Shown here piece after piece: positions 19,033 through 49,049 of a DNA stretch of 64,000 nucleotides; within the stretch, counting starts at the first letter, position 1, and each line of letters opens with the position of its first letter. The notes beneath the pieces are model-generated. The model had not been told where the DNA came from. It saw only the letters and a list, made by a program, of their open reading frames with translations, and searched no databases. Both the position numbers and the translations under genes were made by a program. The stretch comes from Antedon mediterranea (Eukaryota > Echinodermata > Crinoidea > Comatulida > Antedonidae): positions 5,862,312 to 5,926,311 of the forward strand of contig NC_092675.1 of NCBI RefSeq assembly GCF_964355755.1, in the 5' to 3' direction.

Positions 19033-19350
19033 CTGGAAATAAACAGTTATTCTGATTGCTTGAAAATAATGTTATGCAATGCCTGTCTAAAACGTTCTTT
19101 GTTTTGCTGGTTCATTGTCATGTATAATTCTAAAATGCATTCTGTATATTTAATGGGTACTTTAATTTAATTACTAGTTTTAATTCGTGTTTATTTCTAA
19201 TGAATCTATAATATTAACTATTTATTAGAAATAAAAAAACCATTATAAACCTTTCGATTTTATTTATAAACTTAATGCACCTTGAGCTATGTTCATTGGA
19301 CCACAGAACGAGCTAATTTAGACTTCCAGGCACAGAAGAAGTTCCCCGCC

Positions 19351-21709: not shown

Positions 21710-21995
21710 GTATGTGTAACATTTTACAATAATGTTGTATTCATTGCATTCATCGAATTTTTTGGGGATAAATAGACCTAATGTTATCCGAAGGATTACA
21801 ATGTCTAAACAAATGTAATACCGTAGTTTTCACAATTAAATATTTTGGAGAATAATTATGTCATTGTGAAGATCAAAGTATAGTGGAACTTTATTTTTAA
21901 CGCCGAACACATTTTACTTGTTGGTTTGCATTTCAACTGTAATATACAATATACTTGTTTTCAGACAAAAATATTTACTAAGCACAAAGGTGACA

Positions 21996-23039
21996 ATGTA
22001 CAAAGCCAGATGTAAACACAGTGTCATACTTCTCATTGTACTATTTTGCCAGAAAAGTTTTGCTGTTAGATTTGCCTATCAACCAATGGACCATTCAGCA
22101 GTAGAAGGCAGAGAAACACACATCACCTGTATCTTCGGAGATATCCCAGAAGACATGAAACGTAAATATGACGTCATCTGGACCAAAGTTTTTTACGTTA
22201 TCAGCCAACCAAGCAATGGATTTGACATGGAACGTATTACTATTCACGATAGATATGAATATGCAAGACACTTTTTGAGGATTGATCCAGTCAAGAGAGA
22301 AGATACAGGAGATTACCAATGTAAATTAAAATACAATGGCAATGTTCTTCTCACTTCTAGAATTTGGAACCTTTCTGTACGTGAAATACCATCAAATGAA
22401 TATCCAATTGTCAGGTTTAATAAGTCAGCTTACAGAATTGGAGAAGCTGCTATTGCGATCTGTGTGAGTGAAAAGACAAACCCTATACCAGAATTAGAGT
22501 GGGAAGTATCAGATTTTTATTTTTCACCTGATAATTCGCAAATGAAATTAAATAACACACACATTTGGATAGAAGGATCAGAAATAGCATCCATCCTTAC
22601 AAATGGCTCTCGATACGTTTGTAGATTAAAAATACCAGATGAAATTGTTCCAAGATATGCTGAAAGCAAACCACTTTACGTCATAAACAAAGATTTAAAG
22701 GAAACAACTACTGTTTTGACTTCACCAGAAAGAAAACGATTTACTTCTAAACCTAGTTTGACTGTAAACCAGAATTCAGACATCAAAGATCAAGTACATG
22801 CAGATAATGTTAGTTATGGAAGTCGAATCCTATTTGCAATTGTAATATCAGGCCTAATTATTCTACTCTTAATAATAATGATAATCTTGAAACTATTTCG
22901 TGGACAAACTGAACTGACGGAAGTAATGGAAAGAATTTTAACGGAATCAGAAACAACTGAGAAAAACGACTCTAGTCTAAACATCAGACGTAGACTAAAT
23001 CGAGGCAATGAAACTACAATCGGATCGGATAGTAAATAA
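21996..23039 (+). CDS. two-Ig-domain type I membrane receptor, gene C
   Basis: An intact 347-residue paralogue of A and B. It has a signal peptide to Phe-Ala, a V-like Ig domain (HITCIF, VIWTKV, DTGDYQC), a second Ig domain (AICVSEKTNP, LEWE, RYVCRLKI), a stalk with the same TTTVLTSPERK motif as B, an Ile/Leu-rich membrane helix and a tail with an RRR cluster ending in TIGSDSK, close to B. ATG 21996 lies 31 bp after the acceptor at 21964 and matches the starts of A and B. AATAAA overlaps the stop codon (23035-23040). The close similarity of the B and C tails suggests the tail is functional, in contrast to gene A. It pairs head to head with gene E. Confidence 0.9.
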   Translation: MYKARCKHSVILLIVLFCQKSFAVRFAYQPMDHSAVEGRETHITCIFGDIPEDMKRKYDVIWTKVFYVISQPSNGFDMERITIHDRYEYARHFLRIDPVKREDTGDYQCKLKYNGNVLLTSRIWNLSVREIPSNEYPIVRFNKSAYRIGEAAIAICVSEKTNPIPELEWEVSDFYFSPDNSQMKLNNTHIWIEGSEIASILTNGSRYVCRLKIPDEIVPRYAESKPLYVINKDLKETTTVLTSPERKRFTSKPSLTVNQNSDIKDQVHADNVSYGSRILFAIVISGLIILLLIIMIILKLFRGQTELTEVMERILTESETTEKNDSSLNIRRRLNRGNETTIGSDSK

Positions 23040-27712: not shown

Positions 27713-30700
27713 TTAATTCCACGAAGCGTTGTTATCCTCCATTTTCATAATAAATCCTCCAGTTAATCTGTCACACTTGAGTTTATAGTACCTGTAAAAA
27801 ACAAAAACATTTATTGATTAAAAATCTAGATTTTGTTACTTCTTTGTTGAACCAAAAACAGTAAATACCTTATTTATGTATCTTAATTAGCTTAATTTGA
27901 CAATGCTTTGGCTCTAAAACTTCTTTCTTTTCTTATCCACTCATTAGAACTTGCAAGAAAAAACATTCATTTTATGCTCCGTTCAATTTCTGCTAGGATC
28001 GCTTCCTACCGCATTAGATCTACTCCACACTTATATCGAAGTTAGTAGCATTAACTTATATATGGCCGACTTCTGTCGTAAACGACAATGTTAATTAATG
28101 TTGCATTTATCTGAATGATGACTGAGCCAGCACTGTTTTAAAGCACCTTTGGCTGGTCCCCACATTGACCAAGGGCTTCTCTCGTCCAGTAGGGCCTACC
28201 CACCTTAACCAGAGGAGAGGCATAAGCCAATACGTTTAAAGCAGCAACTAGATGCAGGGGCTGCCATAAGAGTCAGCAGTGCCTAATGGGACTCCATCTC
28301 CATATACAGCACCCGGTATTCCCAAAATGTGGTCGGTAAGGCCGTTCATTAACTTATCCATCAAATATATCATGTTTTTGTTTACGTACGTTTTATTTAT
28401 TATTTTTTTGTTAACATAATTATTATGTTCAATTTATTTTCTGTAAAATTATTTAAACTAAGTTACAATGTAGACCTATGGCGTTATTGTTTTGTTTTTG
28501 GTGTTTTTTTTAAATTAATTTTGTTGATTTTTACATCTGCATGTCATTGATCCCTGTACCTTTTTATTTCTGGTAATTAAATAAAAAAAATAATATTTGG
28601 CAAAAATATATAAATCACTTCTCAAACCTTGCTATGATGATGTTTGCTAATACCAATATAAGTACCATGATACCAAGAACAGCAACGGCTGCTGTAAGGT
28701 AACCACGTGTGACGTCAGATACATCCTTATCTTGGGATGAAGCTTTAAAGACTAAGAATTCATAAAAACGTTAAGATGTATTGTCAATGACAAAAATGAA
28801 TTCCACAAATTCATGTGTCGTAAGTTTGCTTCATACTCTATTTCTGATAAGTGGAAGGAATGGTTTATTAGAAACCCAGATCCTTCTGTTGTGTCTTGAA
28901 GGAACTAAGTGTTTAATAGTCCGTTGTGTAAAACAACCCTACGCTTTACTACAGTGAAGCTAATTATTTTATTAAACTTGAGAATAAATAAATCAAAATG
29001 ATATTCTTAATTACATTTTGTAATTAATTATATCATTACAGTTTGATGTTTATACATTTGTAAGTATGTAATTTAATTAAAAATGAACTGAAATAAAATG
29101 TATACACTCCAAGAATGTTCTACACGTCCTTTTTGGTTATAATTTTGAGGTAATAGTTATAGGTTAGTATATGACGACCTTTTAGACCTACCTTGTGGTG
29201 CCTTGGGACTTGTAACATCAACAAAAAAAGAACAGTTGCCATTGTTTCCAAATGAATTAGTTACTGAACATGTGACCTGTGTTGATCCACGTGAAAAGAG
29301 ATCACCAGATGAAGGTATGCAGGTTGCCACTAAATCGCTGTCAAAATCATCCATCACCTTTGGATCATTCCATGTCACTGGTTGCAAAGATTTATCAGAG
29401 CATGTTGAGATGCTAGGGGGACACATAACGATAGGGATATCTACAAAAGAATGGAAGTTGATTTAAATAGCAGATAATGTACGAATATCTTGCTAAGATA
29501 GTAGTAGTTGTGAAGGAAACCCCCTTAATAAAACTTTACCTGGAAGGAATGTATGACCTATGACATGTACAACAAACGAACAAATTCCTACTTTTCCAGT
29601 ACCATCTGTTGCCGAACACGTGACAATAGTTGAACCAACGTCAAAGATTGATCCAGATTCATGTGTACACGTTGCTGATATATCTTTATGTACGTTGTCG
29701 ATTACTGTGGGTTCGTTCCAAGTTACAGGATTTTCAGACTGGTCAACGTCATGGTTCACGGTAATGTGTTCGGGACAAGTGATGGTAGGCTCTGTGTCAT
29801 CTAAATATAGTATATTGTATAGAAAGTGTTATCAAATAAACTGTAAAACATCCAAGTAAGAATAATATAACAAGTACCTTTGATTTTTAGTGTTTTTACT
29901 AAGCAACGATAAACTAATATTTCTGTATTTATGTTTTATTAACATTTCTTATTTTTGCCATAAAAAATCTCTGTATAGATAGGCCTATAATAAACAAAAT
30001 TGCCATTATGCATGCTGAATTAGTACCGTACATAAAATATCATCATTGTTTGGCAATCACACTCTAAAAGATTAGATACTATTTATTCTTTAAAAAAAAA
30101 CATTCTAGTCGAGCATCCAATATTGCAATGACGTGCGAAAATCATACAAAAGTTGTTTTTTGTTTATATTATATTCCATCGTTGTGTTTTACACGGAAAG
30201 AGTGAAATTACATTTTTCTCTTTCAGTTTTGTGTAAACTAAGCGACTAATATTCTTAAATACTAACCTTTGACATGAACTACAAACGAACAATTGCCTTC
30301 ATTTCCACTTGGGTCAGTTGCAGAACAAGTAATCTTGGTGAACCCAACTTCAAATAGAGATCCGGATGGCTTTAAGCAAGTGGCTACGGTGACACCGGTG
30401 TTGTCAATTACAGGAGGACGTCGCCACGTAACAGGATTCAAATTCTGATTGACATCAGAACTTATCTCAATATCGTTTGGACACAAGACATTAGGATTCT
30501 GTATATCTGCAACATGGAATGGAAGATAATCATTTCCTATCTACTGTGTACACAAAGAAAAGAAATTTGGATTTTACAAAAGAAACTGCATAAAACGAAA
30601 TTAAATATCCAAATTGCATTAAACATAATTATTTGAGCATGTACGTATACAGTTTATTTCATAAAACACTAATAGTTTTCGTACTGCAGTATCTTAATAC

Positions 30701-33143
30701 ACACCTTTGTAAACCTTTACTTCACATAAGGTGATTACTCCACTCGTTTTAGATACCGTAACGTACCTCCCAGAAATAGGCGGGTTACAGGTTAGTTCTA
30801 TTGGATTTCTTGAGATTGCATCACTGCGTGAAATCGTTGAATCACATTTTAAATTACTTGAAAATGGTGAAACATTGTTATTGCCAACACAAACCTCTAT
30901 TCCTGTTAACCTCTCCTCTTAAAAGAAAATAGTGAACGTTATTAACCAGTACCACCGTGCACGAAGTAAGCGGTACATGATGTAAAAAAGTACGTAACGA
31001 AACGAGAAAATCGACGAAAGAAAGGTCGGTTAATGGTTGTCCAATGAGAATCGCCTGAAAATAACCTATGTGAAAATTCGCTCTTGGCTACGTCTATATC
31101 AATCGGCCCCGGTAGGTCATTTTAATGTCATATATATATTATTCTATCACCAAAAAATAATGTTCTGCTTTGTTTTTGTTTTTTTTTTTTAAAGAAGAAT
31201 CCTATTCAAATTGTAAATTTTTGTAATGTTTTGGCGTTTAATACATTTTTAATGTAGTCTTACCACAACAATTGTTTCTGTTATATATTACAATCTTTGA
31301 AATTACTGTTTCCGTTTCGAGGTCAACATACCACCATGGATTTTTCTCTGAAGGTGACGCTTGAATAAAAGAATGATAAGATTAAATTAATTGATTAACT
31401 GTTAAAAAGCTAATTAAATCTAAAGTACATTCACTCATGCTTCAGACGTAGTGTAAAGAACATTTTGCGGGTGGGCGGGCAAAACTTTACATGGAGAAAG
31501 TGGCCATTTTGAAATCCAAAATGGCCGCTTTCTCCATGAAAAAATGTCACACTAAAACATGGGCTTCCATGGTGTCATTTGAAATAGAATTGTCATTGAA
31601 TTTATCATTTATTCCTTTACACCCACATAAAAAAGTTAGTTTATACAGTTATTTAGCAATAAACAAGTCATGTGATCAATGAAGGTAAAAAGGTCAACAT
31701 CTAATTTTACTAAATACCGTACTGTTTGGTATCATTAGTTTATTCTGAAATTTATTCTTTTGTCATAATTTTCCAGTTATACATGTTTTCCTTTAATGTG
31801 CACAGGTCTCAGTACAAATATAGATGATATAAAATGTTGATATATTCTTGCTCAGAAAAATTATCTTTCGAATTGTCGTCTTCATGTTTCATTTTGCTTA
31901 TAATAATGTCATCATATCAAAAAGTTACTATGTGGGTCCCGTAAGTAACCTATGCGACACTGTTAGGCCTTTTAATTATACTTAGTAAAAGGAATATTTG
32001 TTTGTTTTATTGTTATGTTAAAATATCACTTACAAGTGGCCGTACATGAATGGGCGACCTCGTAGTTTCCATTTGTTCTGCCGTCAACAGCACGTGCAGC
32101 AATACCACGCCAACCTGTTGAACTTTGTCTGGCTTCTTTAAACTGCGACACTAAACATTGGAGAAACGTACATTAAGCGATTTATATAGTAAGCTAAGTA
32201 AGTAAGTAATATTTATTGCTTTCCAAGAACAGTACAATTTATAAATCAGTCAATTTGAATGAAAATAAATACATAATCTATTATTACAAACAATCTAGGT
32301 AGCATGGTAAAGAAAAAAAAGGAGATTACAATGCTTTATTGAACAAGTATGTCTTAAGAAGCCTCTTCAAAAGAACCACTGACTGTGAATCTCTAATGCA
32401 GTTTGGAAGAGAATTCCAAAGCATAAGAGCTGCATAAGATAATGCACGGTGACCAAATGAGATGGTCTTCACTTTAGCAGGAACAAGACGATTCTGAGAA
32501 TTAGAACGAAGATTGCGACAAGAAGATAGTGGAGTGAGAACATTGTCGATGTACCTCGGTGCAAGACCATGAAGACATTTATATGTGAGCAGCAATATCT
32601 TGAAGTTGACATACTCCTTCACAGGAAGCCAGTGCAGTTCATGCAAGATAGGTGTTATGTGGTCTCTACGCTTAGTTCGACACACTACGGGCAACACTAT
32701 TTTGTAACATCTGCAACTTCCTAAGCAGGGTCTTGGGCAGTGCGATATGATTGTTAGACGTGATGATATAAAGGTATGCACAAGTTGTATGGTTGTTTCC
32801 AGAAACCTACAAATTAGACCAACCTTCCTACCCAACCATAGCAGAACGACAGATGGCATTCAACTTATGCTAAGTTCTGGCAATCATTACCATTATAAAA
32901 ATATACATTCTATTATTTAAAAAAATTCAGTCTATACAATTTGGCCGTAAAATTCCACGCTATTTATGTTTATTGCTATTTAATTGTATGTTGGTACTTT
33001 AAAAGGTCCTATCTGATTTAAGTTAGAGTTAAATTTGCTAACTTACCTAATTCAAACGTATTGTCGTAATATAAAGATATTCTGGATTTCGATGTATGTA
33101 GACAAGTCATAAAGCAGAAAACGATGTATAGTGGTACAATCAT
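27713..33143 (-). CDS. F-type lectin / triple-HYR type I membrane protein, copy 1
   Basis: Nine exons join in frame on the reverse strand: 33143-33047, 32150-32034, 31359-31264, 30917-30705, 30506-30267, 29800-29540, 29440-29192, 28742-28628 and 27791-27713, 1467 nt encoding 488 aa. Introns 1-7 are phase 1 with consensus donors. The protein has a signal peptide (exon 1) and an F-type lectin domain at about 33-174 (ARQSSTGW, ARAVDGRTNGNY, NPWWYVDLE, IVIYNRNNCC, ERLTGIEVCVGN, GRYVTVSK, TLCEVKVY). Three HYR domains follow, one per exon (175-254, 255-341, 342-424), each with CP..I, PVTW and a SATD.(S/T)G or equivalent motif. A membrane helix (about 438-460) and a 27-residue tail end it. The family binds fucose, but the fucose-contacting His is Ala here and the Asp of RxD is Asn, so binding is doubtful. 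The intron 8 donor (AAG|GTTTGA) is weak; reading through stops at 28615 (466 aa). Confidence 0.88.
27847..28345. repeat. 500-bp insertion in intron 8 of lectin copy 1
   Basis: Copy 2 runs directly from CTTCTTTGTTG to AGTTCATTACTTA...CATCAAATAT, while copy 1 has about 500 bp in between. The inserted DNA has a GC-richer core (28130-28330, with GGCTGGTCCCCACATTG and GGGACTCCATCTCC) unlike its surroundings, probably a SINE or MITE of unknown class. Confidence 0.55.
31488..31537. repeat. 22-bp-arm hairpin in intron 2 of lectin copy 1
   Basis: CATGGAGAAAGTGGCCATTT and its near-perfect inverse complement (one G/A difference) are separated by about 5 nt. Copy 2 has a weaker counterpart (43296-43340). 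Confidence 0.75.
32180..32860 (-). mobile_element. CR1/Jockey-like LINE 3' fragment in intron 1 of lectin copy 1
   Basis: The reverse strand encodes RRDHITPILHELHWLPVKEY, FKILLLTYKCLHGLAPRYI, LVPAKVKTISFGHRALSYAA and LWNSLPNCIRDSQSV, the classic C-terminal tail of CR1/Jockey-type ORF2 proteins. It ends in a (TTAC)n tract near 32200. The 5' part, including the RT core, is missing (typical 5' truncation). It lies in intron 1, same strand as the host gene, and is absent at the matching place in copy 2. Confidence 0.8.
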
Positions 33144-33629
33144 CTTGTAAGAATGTTCAACCAGAGAAGTAATATGCAAATATGAATAATGTTCACCAGA
33201 TAACTCAAACCACAATTTCCTCATGATGATTACCATACCAGGCCACTAGACAGTTTGGGCAACATCCGTTTACATTGGATTGAATTTGTTTCACACGTTA
33301 AGATTTATTCGTTGAAAATTTTAAGTTGTTAAACGTACTGACACAGATCACAATTTTTCCCGGAAAAAATATTCAAGAAAATTCAGACAGACCTTATTAT
33401 AAAAATGTTTTCAAGAAAATGATACAGAAGTGGGGAGGCCTAGGACCTAGGCCAGCTGCGCTGATGAATCTAGGCTTACCTTCTACATATCTTTAGCCCT
33501 AAAGTTATTTTGCCCAAATGAAACAAAAAAGTATCCGTATACGTGAGTTTACCTAAACGCTCTGTTATCTGCATGCCACCAAATGCTTACAGTACTTACC
33601 GTCAAATCACTATCTATAATAATTATTTA

Positions 33630-33882
33630 CATGTCTGTTTACCGTATCAAGACACGATCTGCATGTCTGTTTACCGTATCAAGTCACTATCTGCATGTCT
33701 GTTTACCGTATCAAGTCACGATCTGCATGTCTGTTTACCGTATCAAGTCACGATCTGCATGTCTGTTTACCGTATCAAGTCACTATCTGCATGTTTATAG
33801 TATATTTACCCGGGCCTACTATACTGTATGTTAGTATGTATGTCTATTTACCGTATCAAGTCATTATCTGCATGTCTACATT
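33630..33882 (+). repeat. 32-bp minisatellite
   Basis: Five units start at 33630, 33662, 33694, 33726 and 33758, each CATGTCTGTTTACCGTATCA followed by AGTCAC(G/T)ATCTG. A degenerate copy lies at 33840-33882. Because 32 is not a multiple of three, all three frames read the same peptide pattern, which produces spurious overlapping open frames here. Confidence 0.9.
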
Positions 33883-34121
33883 GTCCACCATGAAAGACAT
33901 ATTATGTTTATAGACAAACTGCTTAAATTACGGTTTTCACCGATAAATCTATGTCTACACGAACTACTTTGATAGTGTGGACAGAACTAAGAATGGAAAA
34001 ATTTGAAAATATGCAAATACTGACTGGTTGAACTAATCGTCTTGTTTATTTCTTTTGTTTGGACACCAGTTATTGTCTAAAAATAATAATAGCAAACACC
34101 TCCCGCAAATCTGTTTTCTAA

Positions 34122-35199
34122 GGCCCTGTTCAGACCCATGGCGTTAGACCGTTTTAGCGTACGACGCTAAAAGAATGTGTGTCTGAACAGTTGGGGATTA
34201 GCGTACAACGCGTCGTACAACGGTTGTAGCGTTGTAGTGGAAAACGGTTGATAGTACCGTTTTAGCGTACGACGCTACTGTAAGTCAACGTTGTATCCAA
34301 TCAGAACGTTTCCTGTTATGACGCGAAACAAGGTTTGACCTAGGCTGACATCTTGTATCGTCAATGTGTGAGATGGATTTCAATAACAAAAAGGCCAGAA
34401 TAAATAAGGCCTAACTACACTACAAATACAACTGTTACAAAGGCTACAAACTATTATCAACTGATTACCATTATATTTTCTAACAAATGACATAAATACA
34501 TGCACCTTGTATTTAAACATAGGGACTACGATCCCATCCGCTTTTAGGCCTAGCTAGGCCTAGAGCCATTCACGCATTTCATTCAAGCTAAAAACTAGCG
34601 TGGGACATCAAGTCACTCATTCATACAAGGCAGACTAGACTGGACAAGTTTAATGCTGAAAACCCCCTAACTCCTAAAAAAAATCAGTAAACAAAAACAA
34701 GGGGAGCTGTGTCCCTTTTATTAGCAAGTTAAGGGTTATTTTCTACCGACTGGACCAAATAATATATATCTTTGACTGGATTGGATAGACTAATCACAAT
34801 CATTTTTTTCTTCATTATTACGAGGCCTGCTTTATTTTCGTAACACAAGAGCCTGGGGAAAATGTTTTTTACTACAAAATAAAAACAATAGAAACAGAAA
34901 TTTGGCTTTACTATATTTTTCTTAAATAAATGCTGAGGTATGTTTTATTTACGGCAAATTTTGTCATAATTGTAGGGCTGAGATCTAGGCCTATATACAG
35001 TGGAAATAATGATGAAAACACGTGGGTAAGAGCACATGAATATGCAACTAGAAACAACCTGGATGACGTACTTCCGTTGTAACGATAATCGTACGCTATG
35101 GGTCTGAACACCTCGTTTTTTTCTCTGCGGTTTGTAACGTGACCTTGATAGTAACGTTGTACGCTAAAACGGTCTAACGCCATGGGTCTGAACAGGGCC
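34122..35199. mobile_element. 1.08-kb DNA transposon remnant with terminal inverted repeats (Harbinger-like MITE)
   Basis: The ends GGCCCTGTTCAGACCCATGG (then CGTTAGACCGTTTTAGCGTAC) are inverse complements over about 40 bp. Subterminal GCGTAC(G/A)ACGCT motifs recur. The flanks, TCTGTTTTCTAA before and ACAGAAAACTTATTGAG after, join to give the uninterrupted sequence seen at 49700-49728, so that site serves as an empty paralogue. The flanks fit a TAA target with the right copy mutated, which suggests PIF/Harbinger but is not proven. No transposase frame remains. Confidence 0.7.
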
Positions 35200-35350
35200 A
35201 CAGAAAACTTATTGAGATTGTCGATGATCTATAGCCTCTTCGGTTAAATAGATTGTTCATCGGGATGTGGTTGACAATCATTTAGAACAACATCGGCATT
35301 GTTCGAACTTGTTTTGCAATTGATTGCTTCACTGGAATAAGTTGATGCAT
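35200..35350 (+). repeat. dispersed repeat (TTGAGATTGTTGATGATCTC family), copy 1
   Basis: It shares CCTCTTCGGTTAAATAGATT, GTTCAACGGGA-like and ATTGTTCGAA sequence with 36640-36830 and 49685-49860. Its left part continues at 34085-34121, on the other side of the inserted transposon. Confidence 0.7.
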
Positions 35351-36639
35351 TAAACTACAAATATACTATATTTTTACTTTAGGTTATATAATCATAGAGT
35401 CCATTATTAAGTTTGTTATAATTATGACTTCTGTCCTTAGATGCTATCATCGTCATGCAAATGAAGTGATGTGGTCATGCGCAAAGGTGACTTGACACAA
35501 ATAGGGGTTATTTTCTGGAATGCTAATCATGCATGATATTATAGGCACCGCTTCTGTGACTGGGGCCCGTATACTCCTAATGATTTACATTCATTAGGTA
35601 GAATACATTATATTCGTTATGACATAACTAGGCATATCATATAAGATGTTTATGACCATGTGGTCTTTCTCAAATATTCTTTTTTACGTAGGATATATGG
35701 TATACATGATTTCTAGGTTAGCTGAATTAATTACCGATTGTTTTTTCTTGAAACTGCCTTTTAAATACAAAAGAAATGTTGTCGGGTTAATTAAGAATTT
35801 TAATTAAGGCTTTTTAATAAAAGCATAGTATGTAATTCGCTTTCAGCAATACCAGGTGCAGTTTTGGTTGATTTGCATAATTAAATATTTTCATAAACAC
35901 AATTCTTTCAACTAAGTCTATATTTCATAATATTATGATTTGCTAATTATGATCTTATGAAAGCTCTTTTTACAATTGAATTTTATTATATTTATGCATA
36001 ATCAAAGTTCAATCAATTAGTTTCAGTTATTTAATTAAGCTAAGACAATATTATGTAGGCGCGCGCAGGCAGTCATTTCAATCCATTCTCATTGTTTGAA
36101 TATTTTAATAGTGGCATAGAGTGATTCTTAGACAAGTACGTCGTATTATTATTATTCCAGAATACTCCAGTTCATTCCATCTCTTTTTATTTTGGTGATT
36201 CCAATTGTGCTCTGATTTAACATAGATTTAAAGTATCTACAAAACACATACATCATAAAATGTGTAGCCTAAATAATATTTCGAAACTGGTACAATTAGG
36301 CCAAATGTAACTTATTTTGTAGTCATAGGAAAACTATCTTCATTGAGTGTTCACAAAATATGATTTTTATTGACTGATGAAGTCACCCTCAATTTAAGAC
36401 AGAATACTCTACTACGAAATTTAGAGAAAATCACTAACAGAACAGTGGGTTAAAGTTTAAAAACAAAATGTAATATTAAAAATATAATCGTATAACAATA
36501 TGTGAAGATCAACTGGTATACCGTACTTTGGATAATTAAGTCACATCCTAAACTTAACTAAATACTGGTTGTGTGCATTTGCTACTGAATCTGAATTGTT
36601 TATACTCTTTAGGCGCTAAATGCAAAGTAGTTCAAAGTA
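35351..36639. other. AT-rich spacer
   Basis: No gene, RNA or clear repeat recognised. Confidence 0.4.
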
Positions 36640-36830
36640 GTATTATTGAGATTGTTGATGATCTCTTGACCTCTTCGGTTAAATAGATTGTTCAACGGGA
36701 AGTGGTTGATATTATTGTATATATATACTGTATATGTTTCAGTAACATCATTTGGAACAACGTTAGCATTGTTCGAACTCGTTTAGTTAATAGATTGTTT
36801 CACCGGAGTGGATATATTAAACTAGAAATA
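36640..36830 (+). repeat. dispersed repeat (TTGAGATTGTTGATGATCTC family), copy 2
   Basis: It contains TTGATGATCTCTTGACCTCT, CGGTTAAATAGATTGTTCAA and TTTGGAACAACGTTAGCATT, as in the copies at 35200 and 49685. A short TA-rich interruption lies at 36712-36735. Confidence 0.7.
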
Positions 36831-36956
36831 CCCCATTTAGGTTATAAAACCAGAGTCCATTCAAAATGATCGACAGTTATATGCTTATTTACCCACAGAT
36901 GGTGTGCTTTAATTTGATCTGTGTTGTGAAGTCAACTCAATAATTGTTAAACATTT

Positions 36957-37320
36957 CTACAGCATTCCTTTCTTTCTTCTTTCTTCAGCCCATATCGTCC
37001 CACTGCTGGGCAAAGGCCTCTCCCAATTGATGCCAGTTGTTCCTATATTTTGTAAATCTTGGCCATGCTGTGGTACCGACCTGTCTAACGAGCTTATCCC
37101 TCCATCTCGAATAAGGTATACCTCTCTTTCTTTTCCCATATAATGGTTGCCACTCCGAGTCCGTTGTCAATTGTGTCCATCTATTATCGTGTATCCTTCC
37201 TATATGTCCTGCGCACCTCCATTTTGTATATTTTGCTGTCTTTATTGATAAATAACATACTTTCACGTCATCAACACCGAGTTTGTCCTTTTTCTTAACC
37301 CATACTTGTATGTTAATCAA
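36957..37320 (-). mobile_element. endonuclease/reverse-transcriptase C-terminal fragment (RTE-type LINE)
   Basis: The reverse strand encodes KWRCAGHIGRIHDNRWTQL, EWQPLYGKRKRGIPYSRWRD and NNWHQLGEAFAQQWDDMG. This series (KWRWAGH, NRWT, EWQP, GKR.RG.P..RW.D, W..LGEAFAQQWDD) is the well-known tail of an invertebrate endonuclease-reverse transcriptase family. A frameshift near 37130 splits it. Only the 3' end remains. Confidence 0.8.
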
Positions 37321-37988
37321 CCTCTTTATTTATTCAGCAAATATTTTACTACTAAAAACACCTTTCACGTAGTCTAACCATTTGGATCGAAAACTCGAAT
37401 TGATTGAATTGTCAATCACTTTTTGGTTTCCATTGTCATTTTCAAAGAAGTTGGAATTGGAAAGTTTTGGGGTTTTGAGCTTAGAACAACTTGTGAAAAA
37501 TCGGTGCGATTACGTCGGATTAACCTGAACCATGGAGGTATACCTCCATGCCTGAACCAAGAATTAATGGAGGCAGTTTTTAAAATTGTATATTTGTATA
37601 GTTTAAATAAAACAATTTATCTGGATTTAGAAATGTATTTATAGTTTTACCTGCGATTTGCGAATCTAATATATTACAATACTTAAAATTAAAAAAGCAT
37701 TGTTCACAACTATTATGTAAACAGGATTGAAGTTAAACAAATTTACATTAGTGTACTGTCTCACTAATCTTAAGCCTAGTAATACAAATATATGTTAAAA
37801 AATGGAATCTTGAATTCAAATGTATCATGAATTATTGGGGTTTATTTTAAATATCTGAACTTCCTTCGAAATGGCATTAGTCTGAAGCAATACCGCTGGG
37901 CTTGGTGTTACTATTAGTAAATAACTTTTTTTATCTGTAGGCTTGTATAAATATAGTTTGTAAAATGTACGGTATTTATTTATTCCTA

Positions 37989-40900
37989 TTAATTCCAAGA
38001 AGCGTTGTTATCCTCCATTTTCATAATTAATCCTCCAGCTATTCTGTCACACTTGCGTTTATAGTATCTGCAAAAAACATTTATTGATTAAAAATCTAGA
38101 ATTTGTTACTTCTTTGTTGTTAGTTCATTACTTACCATCAAATATTATATCATATTTAATATTTTTGTTTACGTACGTCAAATTTATTATTTTCTATTTA
38201 TTTTCTGTAAAATAATTTAATTTATCTATTTATAATAATTATGTCTTCTTGCTTGACCTATGGCGTAATTACTGTTTTGTTTTGGTGTTTTTTTAAATAA
38301 TTTTGTTGATTTTTACATCTGCATGTCATTGATCTCTTTATTTCTGGTAATTGAATACAAATAATATTTGCCAGAAATAGATAAATCACTTCCCAAACCT
38401 TGCTATGATGATGTTTGCTAATACCAATATAAGTACCATGATACCAAGAACGGCAACGGCTGCTGTCAGGTAACCACGTGTGACGTCAGATACATCCTTA
38501 TCTTGGGATGAAGCTTTAAAGACTAAGAATTCATAAAAACGTTAAGATGTATTGTCAATGGCAAAAATGAATTCCACAAATTTATGTGTCGTACGTTTGC
38601 TTCATACTCTATTATTTCTGATAAGTTGAAGGAGGATTGGTTTATTAGAAACCCAGATCCTTCTGTTTTTGTCTTAAAGAAATTAGTGTTTGTTGTGTAT
38701 AGGTTTATAAACAACCTTACTCTTTATCTTAATGAGAATGACTAAGTGAAGCTAATTTTTTTAAATTAAACTTGGGAATAAATAAATCAAATGATATTCT
38801 TGAACGAACTAAGTGTTTGGTCCGCTGTGTAAAACAACCCTACACTTTACCTTAATTAGAATTACTACATTGAAGCTAATTATTTTATTAAACTTGTGAA
38901 TAAATAAATCAAAATGATATTCCTAATTACATTATTTGTACGTTAAATTTTATACTTGTTTTATATCATTACAGTTTGATGTTTATACATTTGTAAGTAT
39001 GTAATTTAATTAAAAATGAACTTAAATAAAATGTATACACTCCAAGAATGTTCTACACCTTCTGTTTGGTTATAATTTATAGGTAATAGTTATAGATTAG
39101 TATATGACGACATTTTAGACCTACCTTGTGGTGCCTTGGGACTTGTAACATCAACAAAAAAAGAACAGTTGCCATTGTTTCCAAATGAATTAGTTACTGA
39201 ACATGTGACCTGTGTTGATCCACGTGAAAAGAGATCACCAGATGAAGGTATGCAGGTTGCCACTAAATCGCTATCAAAATCATCCATCACCTTTGGATCA
39301 TTCCATGTCACTGGTTGCAAAGATTCATCAGAGCACGTTGAGATGCTGTGAGGACACATAACGGTAGGGACATCTACAAAAGAAAGGAAGTTGATTTAAA
39401 TAGCAAATAATGTACGCATATCTTGCTTAGATGATTTAACATTTATATGTATTAGGTGTATTCTACAACTCTATATTTAGAGTTTGACTTTCACAGTTTT
39501 CTTCCATAACTTAAAAAAATATATGATTGTGGGTTCAGAAACACTTTGTAGAATAGAGTGCAGTTCCGGTTGTAAACGGTAACACGTACCACTAATAATA
39601 ATAATAATAGTAGTAGTAGTTGTAAAGGAAAACCTTTAATAAAACTTTACCTGGAATGAATGTATGACCTATGACATGTACAACAAACGAACAAATGCCT
39701 ACATTTCCAGTACCATCTGTTGCCGAACACGTGACAATAGTTGAACCAACGTCAAAGATTGATCCAGATGCATGTGTACACGTTGCTGATATATCTTTAT
39801 GTACGTTGTCGATTACTGTGGGTTCGTTCCAAGTTACAGGATTTTCAGACTGGTCAACGTCATGGTTCACGGTAATGTGTTCGGGACAAGTGATGGTAGG
39901 CTCTTTGTCATCTAAATGTTTGTTGTAGAATGTGTTATAAAATAAATTGTAAAACATCACAAGTAAGTATAATATAACAAGTACCTTTGATTTTTAGTGT
40001 TTTTACTAAGCAACGATTAACTAATATTTCTTTTATATTTATGTTGTATTAACATTTCTCAATTTTGCCATAAAAAGTCTCTGTATAGATATAATAAACA
40101 AAATTGTCATTATGCATGCTGAATTAGTACCGTACATAAAATATCATCATTGTTTGGCAATCACACTCCAAAAGATTAGATGCTACAGTATTTATCTGAA
40201 TTCTTTAAAAACAAGGCCATATAGATGGCTGCAGTCGCGTGCTTAGTGTTTACCGACCGACCGACCGACCAACCTACCAACTGACCGAAATTACTGAACA
40301 TGTTTAAAAATGTTGAAATGTTTAAAAACAGTTATATTTTTTTAATTTACACGTGCGTAGCCTGTCACATTTGACGTGCTCGTTTAACGTAATTTCGAGT
40401 TGAAAAGTAAGTCAAGAAAACAGAAATCGGGAAAAAAGAGTGCGCAATAACATTTAACGTGCAGTGCGCGCACAAAAATCTGGGCACTCATGGCAATTTT
40501 GTAAACGCTTAAAATTGCCTGAAACGTTTTAAATGAAATTTTAAGCGCGCGTACGCATGCGTTACATGCGCTACGCACGTAATTGTATTGCCATATGTTG
40601 ATTTATGCCCTGAAATATATGAGTACCAAATTTTATTTAATTGTGATTCATGGTTGTGAAGATATGATTACAAACGTGATTTCGTTAAATCGTGCGTTGA
40701 CCGCGTACTTTTTTATTTTGCACCGTGAAAACATAACCACATCGATTCCTGGCCATAAGGAATATACTGTGAACAATTGACTTAGCTAGATTAAACTGAT
40801 ATCAAGATAAGGTCAGAAAGCAATAAAACGCATAGTGATACCGGACCGACAGACAGACCGACAGACTGACAGACCGACCGACCGACCGACATAGTGAACT

Positions 40901-43900
40901 ATAAGAGTCGCTTCCACGCGACTAAAAACATTCTAGTCGAGTATAAATTATCTACAATATTGTAGTGACGTATACGAAAATGATACAACTTAAGTAGTTT
41001 TTTGTTTTATGTTATATTCCATCGTTGTGTTTTACCCGGAAAGAGTGAAATTACACACTTCCCTGGTTATACAGGGTAAATGACTAACTTTCAGTTCTTC
41101 CGTAAAGCGACTAATATTCTTAAATACTAACCTTTGACATGAACTACAAACGAACAATTGCCTTCATTTCCACTTGGGTCAGTTGCAGAACAAGTAATCT
41201 TGGTGAACCCAACTTCAAATAAGGATCCACATGGCTTTGAGCAAGTGGCTACTGTGACACCGGTGTTTTCAATAACCGTTGGATGTTGCCACCTAACAGG
41301 ATTCAAATTCTGATTGACATCAGAACTTATCTCAATATCCTTTGGACACAAGACATTAGGATTCTGTACATCTGCAACATGGAATGGAAGATAATCATTT
41401 CCTAACTAATGTTTCCATAAAGAGAGTCCAGAACAAAATGTTGATTTTCAATTGCTACTGTTTTGTCCAACTGGAAGGGTTAGACTCTATAAAATAAACT
41501 AAAGATGTACAAGGTATTAACGGGTTTGCCGTTAACCATGTTACTATAATAGTCTGATAAAATAATTTCTTCTAGCTTTTGTATTACTAGATAACTATCA
41601 GGACAGAGGCATTACGCTAAACTCTGTGCGAGCTGCTGGGTTCTGGATAATAGGTGGTGTGGCATCTGTGTCAGGATACTTTCATGACTGCACAGTATGT
41701 CTTCGACGTACAGCATACATAATAAGCCAGTAAATTCGTCGAGAGCGTTTCATATTCGTAAGTACGTGTACGTCGGTTACGTTGCGGCAGAAATTATTCT
41801 TAATTGAGAACCAAGCTTAAGTAGTAAGTAAGTAAGTGAATATCCAAATAGCATTATACACCATTGGCAGCATGTAGTTTACAGTTTATTTCATAAACCC
41901 TAAAAATAGTTTACGTACTGCAGCAACATTTATTAATTATACACACCTTTGTAAACCTTTACTTCACATAAAGTGATTATTCCCATCGCTTTAGATACCG
42001 TAACGTACTTTCCAGAAATAGGCGGGTTACAGGTTAGTTCTACTGGATTTCTTGAGATTGCATCTCTGTGTGAAATCCTCGAATCACATTGTGAATTATT
42101 TGAAAATGGTGAAACTTTGCTATTGCCAACACGAACCTCTATATCTGCTAACCTCTCCTCTTAAAAGAAAACAAAAATGAAAGTTAATAACCAATAAACG
42201 TGAAATGCGGTAAAAGCACAATGGATTTATTGCTGTTCAAATAAATAGCAAACAGGATCAGGCCTAGAGATAGGTTGCACATTAACTTAATAAAGAACTT
42301 ATTAACTGTTTTAAAGCAGATTTTTCAGGTAATTTTGGGTGTTAAAATTTACCTGTAATAAACGCCCCCTAGAAACATCATGTCATTTTAATGTCATAAT
42401 AATTATTCTCCAAAAACAATAGTTAATTAGCCTTGTTTAACTGTTTGTTTTTGCCTGTTTGTTTTTAGGTTTTTTTCGATGAAGGGGAATATTCAAATTT
42501 CATCTTTATTGCTAAAGATATATTAACCCCCTAAAAAAATGGGGTTTTTTTCAATTTTTTGTTTTTGTTTTGAATATGCTATTTTAATGTCACATAATAG
42601 TTAGGCCTATTCACTTTGACAAAAAACTGGAGCGAAAAAAAAAGTATTTACCAGAAAAATGTAATTTAAGACAAAAAAATAATTATATTGTCAGAAAATG
42701 GTTGTTGGTGAAAATTAAACGTTTCTTTTGTTCTTCTATAAGTGAAATAATGATTTCAGTGAATAACTTTATTAAAACTGCAAAATAGCCTATTTAAAAT
42801 CGGATTTTGTTACTCTTCATTTTTTTGGAGGACAATACACCTTTTAGGGTTAATACAATTTTAATGTAGTCTTACCACAACAATTGTCTCTGTTATATAT
42901 AACAATCTTCGAAATGACTGTTTCCGTTCCGAGGTCAACATACCACCATGGATTATTCTCTGACTCTTTCAATGAAATAATGATACGGTTGAATTAATTG
43001 TATTAACTGTTTAAAACGCAATTTTTTTTTAAACTTTACCTTATTGCCAACAAAAACAGCATAAATATAAACAATCTTCATTGAAAAAAGGTGATAAGAT
43101 TTAGTTAAAAGAAACTAGTCAACGATTAACACCAAATAGTAATATGAAATATGTCATATGTTGAAATAATTAATTTAACGTAATGTGAAGGACAATTTAA
43201 AAAGAACGAAGATAATTTGAATCTGAAGTACATGCACTCATGCCTCAGACGTGATGTAAAGACAGTTTTGCAGGAAGAAGGCGGAACTTAGTAAAGCATG
43301 AGAAAGCGCCATTTTGGATTTCAAAATGGCCGGAGAATGCACAACAAAAGACTGTGGATTAATAATTGGTTGGTCTTGTCTATTTATCTATCTTGACTTT
43401 TTTACAATATTTTATAGGTTCGAAATAAAAACCAAATGCGTGTCAGTTGTTTGTAGGCCTAATTAGACCAAAATTCAAATTGATGTTTTGGATAGATATA
43501 TGTTTATATAGTAGCCTATCCAGTTTGACAAAACACAATATACATGATTTTGAACTGTACATATTAGGCCTATAGTATTATACTGTAAACCTGGAAAAAT
43601 ATAAACTTCCAAAATGGCCGCTTTCCCCTGACCAAATTGTGAGCAATTTTATGTTTTTGATCACACCAATGAATAACTGTTATAGTTTTAGAATTTGAAG
43701 GATTTGACTCAAATAAGCACATACTGTAACAGGCCTAATGGATTTTCATCTTTTTCGTCGTAGTTTCACAAATATAAAGTAATGCGCATCTTGCTTCTGT
43801 ATCCATTTTTTTCCAAAATTTAAATATATTCTTGCCCAGACAAATCTTTCGAAATTGTCGTCTTCATGTTTCATTTTACTTATATGCCATCATGTCAAAA

Positions 43901-45201
43901 ATGTACTATATGTGGGTCCTGTAATTTCTCCTATGCGAGACTGTTTTACTTATTGTTATGTTATATAAAGGTTCATACAAATATTATGTAGAATTCGTTA
44001 AAATATCACTTACTAGTGTGCGTGCATGTATGGCCGTTCTCGTAGTTTCCATTTGTTCTGCCGTCAACACCGCGTGCAGGAGGACCATTTGCACCTGTTG
44101 AACTTTGTCTGGTTTGTTTAAACTCCGACACTAAACAATTTTGGGAAACGTACATTAAGCTACTTATATTCATCAATGGTATTAAACTGTATATCATAAT
44201 GATCAATATCTATAAAGATAGACAATTGCATACCCAACAGCGAGAACAAACCAATTACAGGATGGATACACTATTTTATATGTATAGTGCTTATAAAGTG
44301 TCATTTGAGGCTTACGGAGTGGAGTTGAAAGAGTCATGAGTTACAAAGATTGAACCCAGAACCTTGGGATTGGAAGGCAAGTACGTTAACCACCACCACG
44401 GGCAGTGTACGGACTGTAAATTCATAGACGAAAGTGTAGGGATATAGTCACATATTACAAGAATCTTGCCTCTCCATCCATGCTGTCATTTGGAATTATC
44501 TATCTGATAAGTTATAGAATCATCATTCAGCAAAGTAGAAGATTATCTGTTTGCAGAAGACACAAAGACATTTGAGGGAAGATAAGTCTGTCACTAATGT
44601 ATTTTTTCAATCAATCAATCGTTCGATTTATATAGCGCCATTCCAACAGTCATTGCTCATGGCGCTGCCAAAAACAACAGAAAATGTGGGTTTTGAGTAG
44701 TGAAGGTGCTCAATAATGAGGTTTGTTTAATGTTCAAAGGTAGGTGGTTCCAGAGGCTAGGTCCAGCAATGCTGAAGTCCGATATCCCCAACTATGTTTG
44801 CTCCTCGGAATGTCCAGTAGCACCTGATGACTACTGTAGATCCTAGATCTGTTGTCAACACAATTTTAGGAGTGTTATTTCGTATGGTCTGTCTATCAAA
44901 CAACAAGGCACTGAGCTTGAATTATCAAGATAGGCTATTTAATAGATTTGGTATGTGGTTCTTCGACGAATTCATGCAAAGATGTCAAATTCTAGGCTTT
45001 GTAGGCCTATGTGTATTGCTATTAATTTTATGTTGGTACTTTTAAATATCCTATATCTGATTTCTATTCAAGTAAATTTGCTATGCACAATTTCGATAAC
45101 TTACCTAATTCAAACGAATCGTATGAAGACCAGATTATTCTGGATTTCGATATATGCAGACAAGTCATAAAGCAGACAACGATGTATTGTGGTACAATCA
45201 T
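37989..45201 (-). CDS. F-type lectin / triple-HYR type I membrane protein, copy 2
   Basis: Nine exons join in frame on the reverse strand: 45201-45105, 44130-44014, 42965-42876, 42159-41947, 41371-41132, 39911-39651, 39373-39125, 38513-38399 and 38067-37989, 1461 nt encoding 486 aa. The order is signal peptide (MIVPQYIVVCFMTCLHIS), F-type lectin domain (about 33-172), three HYR domains, a membrane helix and a 27-residue tail, the same as copy 1. The lectin domain keeps the binding pattern His (in CTHT), 26 residues, Arg (in YNRDNCC), then Arg four residues after the third position, but that third position is Asn instead of Asp. HYR1 has an extra Cys (KPCGS). Exon 3 is two codons shorter than in copy 1. 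Reading through the weak intron 8 donor (AAG|GTTTGG) stops at 38386 (464 aa). Function as a membrane-bound glycan receptor is inferred. Confidence 0.88.
38690..38930 (+). repeat. 118-bp tandem duplication in intron 7 of lectin copy 2
   Basis: Two adjacent segments share GTGTTTG...TTGTGTA, ACAACC(T)TAC(A)CTTTA, GTGAAGCTAATT and AATAAATAAATCAAA. Copy 1 has this segment once (about 28905-29005). Confidence 0.65.
40206..40213. repeat. 8-bp target-site duplication, left
   Basis: TAAAAACA, repeated at 40923-40930 on the other side of the inserted element. The matching intron of lectin copy 1 (about 30089-30102) lacks the element. Confidence 0.75.
40214..40922 (-). mobile_element. 709-bp GTCGCG...ATGGCC DNA element in intron 5 of lectin copy 2
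   Basis: Inserted with an 8-bp target duplication (TAAAAACA). The plus-strand left end is AGGCCATATAGATGGCTGCA followed by GTCGCGTG, and the right end is GCTTCCACGCGAC, that is, the family in inverse orientation. (CCGA)n tracts lie near both ends. The interior is homologous to 8380-8870. No protein is encoded. The 8-bp duplication points to an hAT-type mechanism, though the ends lack a perfect inverted repeat. Confidence 0.8.
41599..41712 (+). mobile_element. BEL/Pao-like integrase zinc-binding fragment
   Basis: A 38-codon plus-strand stretch reads DRGITLNSVRAAGFWIIGG, then VASVSGYFHDCTVCLRRT. This matches the integrase H2C2-type zinc-binding region of BEL/Pao LTR retrotransposons (LN..R..FWI..G...V......C..C). 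Neither LTR nor other pol domains are visible. It lies in intron 4 of lectin copy 2, within a block (41501-41830) absent from copy 1 that ends in an (AGTA)n tract. Confidence 0.6.
42475..42860 (-). repeat. AT-rich dispersed repeat, copy 2 (inverted)
   Basis: In intron 3 of lectin copy 2. The ends ATTAACCCCCTAAAAAAATG and TTGGAGGACAATACACCTTT...AGGGTTAAT look like loose terminal inverted repeats. The interior has CACTTTGACAAAAAACTGGA and TTTATTAAAACTGCAAAATA, the inverse of sequence in the 23516 and 56040 copies. Confidence 0.6.
44330..44405 (-). mobile_element. tRNA-like SINE fragment in intron 1 of lectin copy 2
   Basis: In reverse, GGTGGTTAACGTACTTGCC resembles an A box and GGTTCTGGGTTCAATC a B box. 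No acceptor stem is evident, so it is a SINE head and not a tRNA gene. Confidence 0.4.
44606..44830 (-). mobile_element. CR1/Rex-like LINE 3' fragment in intron 1 of lectin copy 2
   Basis: The reverse strand reads FSIAGPSLWNHLPLNIKQTS then LLSTF, a decayed LINE C-terminal motif. It is followed by a 3'UTR with GCGCTATATAAATCGAACG and a (GATT)n tail. It differs from the LINE in intron 1 of copy 1, so the two insertions are independent. Confidence 0.65.
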
Positions 45202-46404: not shown

Positions 46405-49049
46405 TCATGCTATCAATTGTAACAGAGTTTCCTTTTTTGCACCCCATTTACGTTGTGCCTTAATGAAGTTACACATATGTTCATTTTCTATTAGATTTTT
46501 AACTTCAGCAGTGAAAAGAATCCAGATCTTTTTTTTATCATCTTTATCTTTTCTTCCACCATTGGATATTATGTGTACCTTGTATATACAGAATAAAAAC
46601 ATAGAAATCAATTCATTTACAATATTGTTTTTTGTTCCTGTAACAATTTTAAACCATGTAATATTATCTTCAGCTGGAAAGCAATTAGCCAGCACACCTT
46701 TAAATTTGTGCCATGTCCATTGAATGGCATTGCATTCAAACAGCATGTGCTGTTCACTTTCTATCTGATTTATACAATTGTCACATAAATTAGTTTCTGC
46801 CAAATTCCATAATTTTAATCTTTTTTTACACGGTAATATTCGATGTAAGAGTTTACAGTTGAATTGAGCAACTTTAACTATATGTTTCATCTTGTATACC
46901 TTATAATACCATACTTTATTCCAATCTATTTCTACGTTATTTAGCTCACATTCCCATTTTCTTTGTGAACCTGGTTCAGTGGAACGTTTGTTTATAAAAT
47001 ATTTATAGTAGATAGATCCTTTAATGTTCTTATGCAACAATGAGTCATTATTACCTACATCTTGATTATTTGTATTGTCTTTTCTAATAATTTCTTTCCA
47101 CCCATTTGGTATGGCATTCATAAGCTGTAAATATTCGATTAAACCATTATGTTTTTTATACAAATTTGAGATTATTTCACCTGCGGTACATACTCTATCA
47201 TTTATAAATATGTCCGAATTACTTTATAATCAGAATATAACCATGATTTGAAGTACAATGATTTATTGTTAGATAGTATAAACTTATTTTCCCATAGTTG
47301 TTGATTTTTTATTTCTATTAAAGTTGTTGGTTCTGAATACACAATATTATTAAATTTTACAACAGCATTAATCATGTTCTTGTAGAATGTAGGCATATCT
47401 CTCAAGTTAGCATGATCATGTACATTAAGTTTAGTACTTTTTATTGTATATTCAATTGGGTGAAGGAAATATTTTGGTATGCATTTCCATTTACCTGGAT
47501 CTGGACTTAACAGTCGCTTGACCCAATTCAGTTTAAGTGATTCAACCACAGAGCTAATATCTGGCATGTTTAAACCACCTTCCTTAATATTTTTAATTAA
47601 GGTTATTCTCTTTATCTTTTCCCTTCTGGTTCCCCATAGGAACGTATATAATAGTTTTTCTATTTGTTTAACTATATCTTTGGGAACATCAATTATACTT
47701 GCGTTATATATAAACTTAGACAATGCAAGTGTTTTAATAATAGTTATTTTACCAAAAAAGGTAAGATTCCTTCTTTTCCATAAATTTAATACGTTTTCTA
47801 GGTTGGTCATTTTTTTGTCCCAGTTTCTCTTTTCACATAAATGCTTATTGTAACCTATATGGATTCCTAAAAATTTAACAGGTTCACTAGTCCATGTAAT
47901 ATCTAATGGTTTTGAAACACTATTTTCGTTTACACCAATCCACATACCATTTGTCTTTTTTCTATTTAATGTTAACCCTGAAACACTACAAAAAGACTCA
48001 ATCTCATTAAAGAAATATTTTAAACTACCTTCGTCATGTGAAAAAATTACGGTGTCATCCGCTAATTGAGCAATTTTAACGATATTATCATCATCGTCAT
48101 TGCTATTAGGTAACGTAATTCCTATACATTTAGAATTATTTCTGATATTTACTGCCATTATTTCTGATACCAGAATAAATAGCAAAGCAGATAATGGGCA
48201 GCCTTGCCTCACACCACACTCCATTTTAAACTTTTCTGACAACCATCCGTTGTTTACTATGACACATTCTGTTTCTTTATACATAACCTTTATCCATTTG
48301 ATAAATGAATTTCCAAAACCAAAGAGTTTTAAAACCTTAAACAGCAGTATTCTGTCTATTGAGTCGAAAGCTTTCGCATAATCAAGAAAAACAATAGCAC
48401 CTGTCATACTTTTTGCTTTTGTGTAGTCTAGTATGTCGTTTACCAGTCTTACATTTTCTCCTCCAAACCTTTTCTTAATATAACCTTTTTGATCTTCATT
48501 TATAATGGAACCTATAACGTTGTGTAACCTATTAGCTAGAATGTGAGCCAATATTTTATAATCCACATTAAGTAGTGTTATTGGTCTCCAATTGTTTAGG
48601 TTTTCCCTCTGTCCATTTTTGTATAAAAGATTAATAATACCTCTTCTTTGTGTTGTTGATAACATGCCTTTAACAAAGCTATAATTCAATGAATCACACA
48701 ATAAATATTTTACATTCTCCCAAAATGTACGATAAAATTCTACACTTAATCCATCAATACCAGGACTCTTATTTATTTTCATTTTAAAAATCGTTTTTGT
48801 GCATTCTTCGACTGTTACAAGACCTTCACATTTTATTACATCTTCCTCTAACAACGTTTTTAATTTTGTGTGCTTTAGATATTTGTTCATATCGTTTAGA
48901 GGTATTTCTTTATTAGAGTATATGTTTTTATAAAATAGAACTTCTTCTTTCAGAATTTCATCATTGTTAGATGTATATTTTCCATTACTTTTTAAAACAG
49001 ATTTAATGTGTTTTCTTTTAGCATTATTCTTTTCTAACCCTAAGAAGAA
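46405..49049 (-). pseudogene. Tx1/L1-like LINE ORF2, 5'-truncated and frameshifted
   Basis: The reverse frame from about 49049 to 47202 encodes the part before RT (FLGLEKNNAKRKHI, DEILKEEVLFYKNIYS) and the RT domain: KSPGIDGLSVEFY, NWRPITLLNVDYKI, FLDYAKAFDSIDR, GVRQGCPLSALLF and LADDTVIF with the catalytic Asp pair intact. The thumb/tail follows, with FLWGTRREKIKRITLI and EGGLNMPDI. It stops at 47202, and a frameshift at about 47210-47220 moves the rest (46405-47200) to another frame: LHRILPCKKRLKLWNLAE, then CDNCINQIESEQHMLFEC, a Cys-rich terminal motif. The endonuclease and ORF1 are missing (5' truncation at about 49050). The clade call rests on these motifs. Confidence 0.88.

Follow-up and report, generated by a model that had tools for sequence, protein, structure and literature searches.

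How surface recognition varies in invertebrates, which lack vertebrate-type adaptive immunity, is an open question, and a locus of the crinoid Antedon mediterranea (Echinodermata) raises it in concrete form: what would an F-type lectin do when it is encoded together with a stalk of HYR domains and a membrane helix? The stretch analysed, called the window below, comprises 64,000 nucleotides of contig NC_092675.1 (assembly GCF_964355755.1, forward-strand positions 5,862,312 to 5,926,311), and its chromosome is referred to as C6. The genome sequence gives its own hint of an echinoderm: one tektin exon scores 290.6 bits against 8snb, a sea urchin structure, and at most 155.9 bits against other tektins. 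A second tektin exon comes closest to Tektin-3 entries (8snb at 121.1 bits at best) and adds nothing, COX1 was not found, and published chromosome numbers of echinoderms (PMC3308324) did not settle the point. The initial annotation described two nine-exon tandem genes with GT/AG ends and in-frame junctions, and rebuilding them from the sequence recovered exactly this, with 16 of 16 introns running GT..AG and both joined frames open to the stop. Gene A lies on the minus strand at 27713-33143 and encodes 491 amino acids (aa), gene B on the same strand at 37989-45201 and encodes 489 aa, and the two proteins are 86.8% identical. Both follow one exon order: a signal-peptide-like exon 1, an F-type lectin in exons 2 to 4, HYR domains in exons 5 to 7, a membrane helix in exon 8, and a tail in exon 9. 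The first seven introns of each gene are in phase 1 and the last is in phase 2.

A domain search of the joined proteins gave an F5/8-type C domain and three HYR domains in both. More precisely, HYR matched three stretches in each whole protein (B, E 2.1e-37, 127.7 bits; A, E 1.9e-36, 124.7 bits; Pfam cut-off 21.7 bits), and F5_F8_type_C_2 (B 6.6e-21, A 9e-19) and F5_F8_type_C (B 1.6e-12, A 6.9e-13) both scored above their cut-offs. The nearest solved structures to whole protein B in the PDB are FBP32 of striped bass (3cqo, E 1.2e-33) and the eel lectin AAA (1k12, E 1.9e-17), both of which are soluble lectins. The lectin domain of B alone spans 140 residues and aligns with FBP32 at E 2.5e-35 and with AAA at E 7.2e-18, so that the complete F-lectin domain of the annotation stands as a homologue of these two. 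By hydropathy, the N-termini of A and B are hydrophobic and signal-peptide-like, and the strongest hydrophobic stretch, of mean 3.05, has its start close to residue 445 and lies in B at about residues 440-463, with R-Y-Y-K-x-K behind it; 26 tail residues follow the membrane exon in both proteins. The annotated architecture of lectin, three HYR domains, membrane helix and short tail is right on these grounds, and a lectin fixed to the membrane by an HYR stalk is its natural reading. We accordingly describe A and B as encoding type I membrane lectins, a topology predicted from hydropathy.

The sugar site was read from an alignment of B with AAA, whose numbering we use, and from the motif given in section 4 of PMC5712786, which has an acidic residue at the Asp81 position. 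As in AAA and FBP32, the lectin domain of B has the fucose triad His52-Arg79-Arg86, and the cysteines of AAA's three disulfides (50-146, 108-124, 82-83) are present in B by this alignment and also in A. The crinoid proteins differ from both fish lectins in placing a single lectin domain on an HYR stalk with a membrane helix, in having N at Asp81 and, in A, in lacking the histidine. Across the 12 heads read (A, B and those of loci g1-g9 and g11, introduced below), the H-R-R triad is kept in ten, the exceptions being A and g6, which has Gln for His52 and Ser for Arg86; position 81 is D in nine, N in A and B, and V in g1. The suggestion that the pair is glycan-sensing is only partly supported, by the triad of gene B, and is weakened by the N at Asp81 in both genes and by the missing histidine of gene A.

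The pair is part of a family. Searching the genome with protein B gave 102 matches, the strongest of which beyond the window fall at C6:25.65-25.75 Mb. This second cluster, 20 Mb away on the same chromosome, holds 11 loci with lectin exons (g1 to g11; C6:25.647-25.752 Mb, in 120 kb examined), which brings the family to 13 loci on one chromosome, with A and B as an outlying tandem pair. Complete joined frames of 489-588 aa with GT/AG at every junction were obtained for g1, g4, g5, g6 and g7, and in the three of these scanned against Pfam we found three HYR stretches (g1) or four (g4 and g7). For g11 we found exons 2 to 9 and a candidate exon 1 that resembles one upstream of g9; the acceptor of its exon 2 is listed two codons upstream of the cut position, where there is no AG. 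A membrane exon was seen in 10 of the 11 cluster loci, g10 being the exception, and the order of lectin, HYR and membrane exons was seen at nine family loci (A, B, g1, g3-g7 and g11). The cluster divides into subfamily I (g9, g10, g11), whose stalks are like those of A and B, and subfamily II (g1-g8), with different stalks and membrane helices. In line with this, the membrane exon of A and B has four genome matches only (E up to 1), namely A, B, g9 and g11. As a separate observation, g3 carries beside its own exon 4 a partial, g4-like second lectin exon 4 (C6:25679588-25679692 and C6:25679766-25679981), which suggests that an exon was duplicated or converted recently.

Heads and stalks of the family have different histories. 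The lectin tree was built from exons 3-4 and has 19 rows, namely A and B, nine loci of the cluster (g2 and g10 excluded) and eight out of 13 copies of exon 4 from elsewhere in the genome. In it A and B stand among the heads of subfamily II, and g9/g11 fall with lectins from outside the family; a tree constrained to unite A, B, g9 and g11 is worse by 20.9 log units and is rejected (p of the approximately unbiased test, p-AU, 0.0029). In the stalk tree (HYR 1-2, 10 rows; g2, g8 and g10 excluded), these four genes form one clade (100/100). When B is compared with g11, synonymous divergence amounts to 1.45 for the lectin exons and 0.22 for the HYR exons. At the nucleotide level A and B match g11 over exons 5-9, the HYR exons among them, and over the introns as far as the 3' flank; exons 1, 2 and 4 of A and B match subfamily II only, and exon 3 matches both subfamilies, subfamily II better. 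The exon 1 peptides agree in placing the head side of A and B with subfamily II. Since the heads of A and B group with one subfamily and their stalks with another, we conclude from trees, nucleotide matches and exon 1 peptides that head-stalk exchange has occurred at least once in the family. The break probably lies in or near intron 4, without finer location within it. Locus g2 looks like a further mosaic, with exons 1-3 similar to g5 and a rear part similar to g3.

Across the subfamilies the tails nevertheless share the block G-x-I-x-M-K-x-E-E-x-x-x-S-W, and no known signalling motif was recognised in the tail of A and B. We ranked 993 acceptor-led frames of 15-45 residues from the cluster by their likeness to the tail of B from its seventh residue on. 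Each of the 11 best-ranked frames either is a tail of g11, g9, g6, g5, g8, g4 or g1 or overlaps one, so that seven of the eight called tails are among them. This ranking replaces shuffle tests (0/2000; 1/5000 for part of the tails), which overstate the likeness because the tails had first been chosen partly by the motif and by likeness to the tail of B. The block is common to most family copies. A genome search with the tail of B matches B, A and g11 only, so that a wider use of the tail is not shown.

Substitutions between A and B argue that these are real genes. For the three HYR exons taken as one, the ratio of nonsynonymous to synonymous divergence (dN/dS) is 0.41, for the membrane exon plus tail it is 0.28, and the membrane exon has no replacement change; HYR 2 alone gives 1.23, resting on five changes. 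The alignable pieces of their introns (blastn, pieces of at least 26 bases) are 75-98% identical, and the same exon order and phases are found again in the paralogues. Because stalk and anchor are under purifying selection and relatives have the same exon chain, both genes are probably real. The lectin exons give 1.17, for which no difference from 1 is shown. In lectin exons 2-4 there are 40 replacement changes to 10 silent ones, in the HYR, membrane and tail exons 21 to 16, and the contrast has a Fisher p of 0.03 in one post hoc test that excludes exon 1 (11 replacement, 4 silent). Selection for change in the lectin exons of the pair is at most suggested by these figures, and relaxed constraint in A fits equally. 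Over ten pairs of family members, which are not independent and include g11/g9 without exon 2 and g7/g8 with one HYR exon, lectin dN/dS exceeds HYR dN/dS in eight. Positive selection as a general rule was also considered and is not borne out, the lectin ratio being below 1 in nine of these ten pairs.

The joining of lectin and HYR exons appears to be a local feature of C6. The lectin exon-4 peptide has 75 matches in the genome, 62 of them outside the family. No HYR exon was found beside other lectin loci in nine regions (11 pieces of 10 kb) in which lectin exons were present; the same HYR models gave, as a positive control, 42 matches in the cluster from which they were built, and at C6:0.27-0.29 Mb HYR matches lie just beyond the edges of the sampled pieces. 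Among the regions examined, the lectin-HYR fusion is confined to the C6 loci. HYR exons themselves are abundant, with at least 150 in the genome: all 150 that were scored, the best 150 of 1417 first-look candidates, passed. Dense HYR clusters among the matches listed lie at C1:6.55-7.29, 14.30-14.44 and 39.05-39.67, C10:11.87-11.89, C4:29.47-29.49 and C3:27.75 Mb. Other arrays of F-type lectin exons, with no HYR exon where sampled, were seen at C5:25.42-25.43, C7:11.76-11.78, C3:29.7-29.96 and C2:18.29-18.31 Mb. A membrane-anchored protein that joins an F-type lectin to HYR modules is not described in the literature searched, which was itself partial and does not cover the main survey; the novelty of this architecture is unproven, the comparison being one of published descriptions only.

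In our reading the 13 loci form one family of type I membrane lectins whose heads can be exchanged and whose task is most likely non-self recognition; we give this reading a probability of about 0.55. The proteins of A and B would each start with a signal peptide and carry a single F-type (fucose) lectin head on three Ig-like HYR modules, followed by a membrane helix and a short basic tail. The head would be outermost on the cell surface and would bind fucosylated or related glycans outside the cell, in B and most paralogues and probably not in A or g6; the HYR modules may act as a spacer and the tail block may bind a partner. A head unit (exons 1-4) and a stalk-anchor-tail unit (exons 5-9), bounded by phase-1 introns, have been swapped between members at least once, so that a new head can sit on an existing stalk, and this exchange, together with loss of the triad, may give one anchor different specificities. 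The most likely role would be the recognition of microbial, non-self glycans on immune or epithelial cells. We place defence first because this is a multi-locus family with decayed copies. Fish F-type lectins are described as recognising pathogens and acting as opsonins (PMC5712786).

A bolder form of this idea, which we regard as tentative and rather doubtful, is a recombining lectin-based system of non-self (or allo-) recognition, in which heads would move between stalk-anchor units via phase-1 introns, with a conserved tail of its own. Its logic would be that of the snail VIgL proteins, in cell-bound form and with a different lectin fold. In the available part of their description, the VIgL (FREP, CREP, GREP) likewise combine Ig-type modules with a lectin domain, are multigene and are linked to immunity, whereas their lectin is a fibrinogen, C-type or galectin domain, they are plasma proteins, and FREP have the Ig first and the lectin last (PMC5433772). 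A and B fall outside the VIgL definition, since their lectin is N-terminal and F-type and their modules are HYR.

Several observations weigh against reading the family as exchangeable non-self receptors. Five of the 13 loci look broken or incomplete as built: in g2 a single HYR exon was found and the frame of exon 4 is broken, no tail of g3 was found in the cluster sequence, the HYR exon of g8 is interrupted, g9 has a stop at the beginning of exon 2, and g10 has stops and neither an exon 4 nor a membrane exon that we could find. The tails of g2 and g10 were likewise not found in the cluster, and that of g7 ranks 29th of 993. At the sugar site, Ala replaces His52 in gene A and breaks the triad, and neither A nor B has an acidic residue at Asp81. 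The lectin head gives dN/dS above 1 only for A/B; with values of 0.30-0.66 in the remaining nine pairs, an arms race across the family is not demonstrated. The forks of the lectin tree are mostly weak (3 of 16 inner branches starred) and g1, g9 and g6 are long rows; moreover, the group of A, B, g9 and g11 that was forced together had been chosen after the divergence figures were seen. Finally, the exchange may have run either way, with A and B as the chimeras or with new heads passing to g9/g11.

The likeliest alternative concerns gene A and is compatible with the non-self reading of the family as a whole. Gene A may be decaying or repurposed, with fold and anchor kept and the sugar site lost, as a decoy, a protein for another ligand or a young pseudogene, B being then the only lectin of the pair; this is a genuine possibility, albeit at less than even odds. 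Besides the changes at positions 52 and 81, A has two residues inserted close to the site and one additional cysteine, at AAA position 93; the lectin dN/dS of 1.17 is explained by relaxed constraint no less well than by selection. Having lost the fucose-contacting histidine and with N at Asp81, A may therefore not bind fucose, and we treat its product as an F-type lectin domain by homology, not as a demonstrated fucose lectin. However, its nine-exon frame is open, its splice ends are intact, the membrane exon has no replacement and the HYR exons together are constrained; loss of the triad also occurs among oyster bindin isoforms (PMC5712786).

A second alternative, which we consider unlikely, is gamete recognition: eggs or sperm would carry the family on their surface, and its heads would bind glycans on the other gamete. 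The sperm bindins of oysters are F-type lectins that have diversified through positive selection round the fucose pocket and through recombination in a lectin intron, and some isoforms lack the triad (PMC5712786); the replacement excess in lectin exons 2-4 of A and B points the same way. In the part of that source available, however, the bindins are acrosomal, have one to five lectin domains without mention of HYR, and recombine inside the lectin domain, whereas recombination here is between head and stalk. A and B fall outside the definition of an oyster-type bindin by the HYR stalk and membrane helix that follow the lectin domain, and 13 loci with five broken look more like a repertoire than a single gamete lock. 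A further parallel for such a role, the sea urchin protein EBR1_5, likewise from an echinoderm, has HYR repeats and a membrane domain, but its available description gives a SEA domain and seven HYR and does not mention a lectin (PMC5521101).

A role in adhesion, or in self/allo-recognition by glycan binding with no part in defence, seems improbable. HYR modules occur in adhesive extracellular proteins, and IgSF-like (immunoglobulin superfamily-like) membrane genes lie near the pair. The Drosophila proteins furrowed and CG9095 offer a parallel in joining an F-type lectin to other extracellular modules (CCP, C-type lectin) and a predicted membrane domain, HYR not being mentioned in the available part of the source, and the title of a reference cited there links furrowed to eye and bristle development (PMC5712786). 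Tandem expansion, decayed copies and head exchange would nevertheless be unusual for a housekeeping adhesion gene. That the lectin and HYR exons are never or not always joined, giving a soluble lectin and an HYR membrane protein or, by retention of intron 4, a soluble form, is very improbable: the exon 4 frames of B and A (window 41933-42160 and 30694-30918, minus strand) stop in intron 4 after four and three residues, so that intron retention could in principle yield a soluble lectin, and the other sampled lectin loci have no adjoining HYR exon, but the frame into intron 4 stays open for at least 19 codons in g3, g5, g6, g7 and g8, the phases match, and the lectin-HYR-membrane order recurs at nine loci.

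A cluster of cell-bound fucose lectins with recombining heads and stalks would make a small, testable system, in which A and B are a natural pair without and with the histidine of the site and a partner could be sought by way of the conserved tail. Were the role gametic instead, the family would link lectin bindins of the oyster type to HYR membrane proteins of eggs. The exons of both genes and the likely exchange sites are listed in Table 1.

Table 1. Exons of genes B and A and the introns in which heads and stalks were probably exchanged (window positions)
Feature	Position	Strand	Detail or basis
Gene B exon 1, signal-peptide-like start	45105..45201	-	begins with ATG, hydrophobic; GT donor in phase 1
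Gene B exon 2, F-type lectin part 1	44014..44130	-	His52 present (CTHT)
Gene B exon 3, F-type lectin part 2	42876..42965	-	NRDNCC: Arg79, Cys82-Cys83, N at Asp81
Gene B exon 4, F-type lectin part 3	41947..42159	-	Arg86
Gene B intron 4, likely exchange site	41372..41946	-	exons 1, 2, 4 like subfamily II; exons 5-9 and introns like g11
Gene B exon 5, HYR 1	41132..41371	-	Pfam
Gene B exon 6, HYR 2	39651..39911	-	Pfam
Gene B exon 7, HYR 3	39125..39373	-	Pfam
Gene B exon 8, membrane helix	38399..38522	-	hydropathy
Gene B exon 9, tail	37989..38067	-	RYYKRKCDRIAGGLIMKMEDNNASWN and stop
Gene A exon 1, signal-peptide-like start	33047..33143	-	
Gene A exon 2, F-type lectin part 1	32034..32150	-	without His52 (CTAT)
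Gene A exon 3, F-type lectin part 2	31264..31359	-	two additional residues
Gene A exon 4, F-type lectin part 3	30705..30917	-	one additional cysteine
Gene A intron 4, likely exchange site	30507..30704	-	as for gene B intron 4
Gene A exon 5, HYR 1	30267..30506	-	Pfam
Gene A exon 6, HYR 2	29540..29800	-	Pfam
Gene A exon 7, HYR 3	29192..29440	-	Pfam
Gene A exon 8, membrane helix	28628..28751	-	residues identical to those of B
Gene A exon 9, tail	27713..27791	-	tail and stop

Intron 5 of gene B holds a 0.7-kb repeat (window 40240-40928) that is 88% identical to a copy at C6:25687853-25688552 in the second cluster, and intron 5 of gene A measures 466 bases only. A tandem repeat at window 33630-33794 (period 32, 5.2 copies, 96% matches) lies about 0.5 kb upstream of the start codon of gene A. 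The IgSF-like membrane genes or gene pieces near the pair are four long open frames, at window 5100-6196 (+), 12515-13609 (+), 17854-19071 (-) and 21870-23039 (+), 5-22 kb from the lectin genes. An Ig model scores above the Pfam cut-off in three of them and below it only in that at 21870-23039, and the frames at 12515 and 21870 have a related C-terminal tail in common. Their presence is compatible with a region of surface receptors and is no proof of one. About 1.2 kb upstream of gene B, a non-long-terminal-repeat (non-LTR) retrotransposon occupies window 46405-49049 (-) with two frames matching RVT_1 (E 9.3e-35) and zf-RVT. Finally, a small frame at window 54437-54814 (-) has a secretory-looking start and EF-hand matches below the cut-off.

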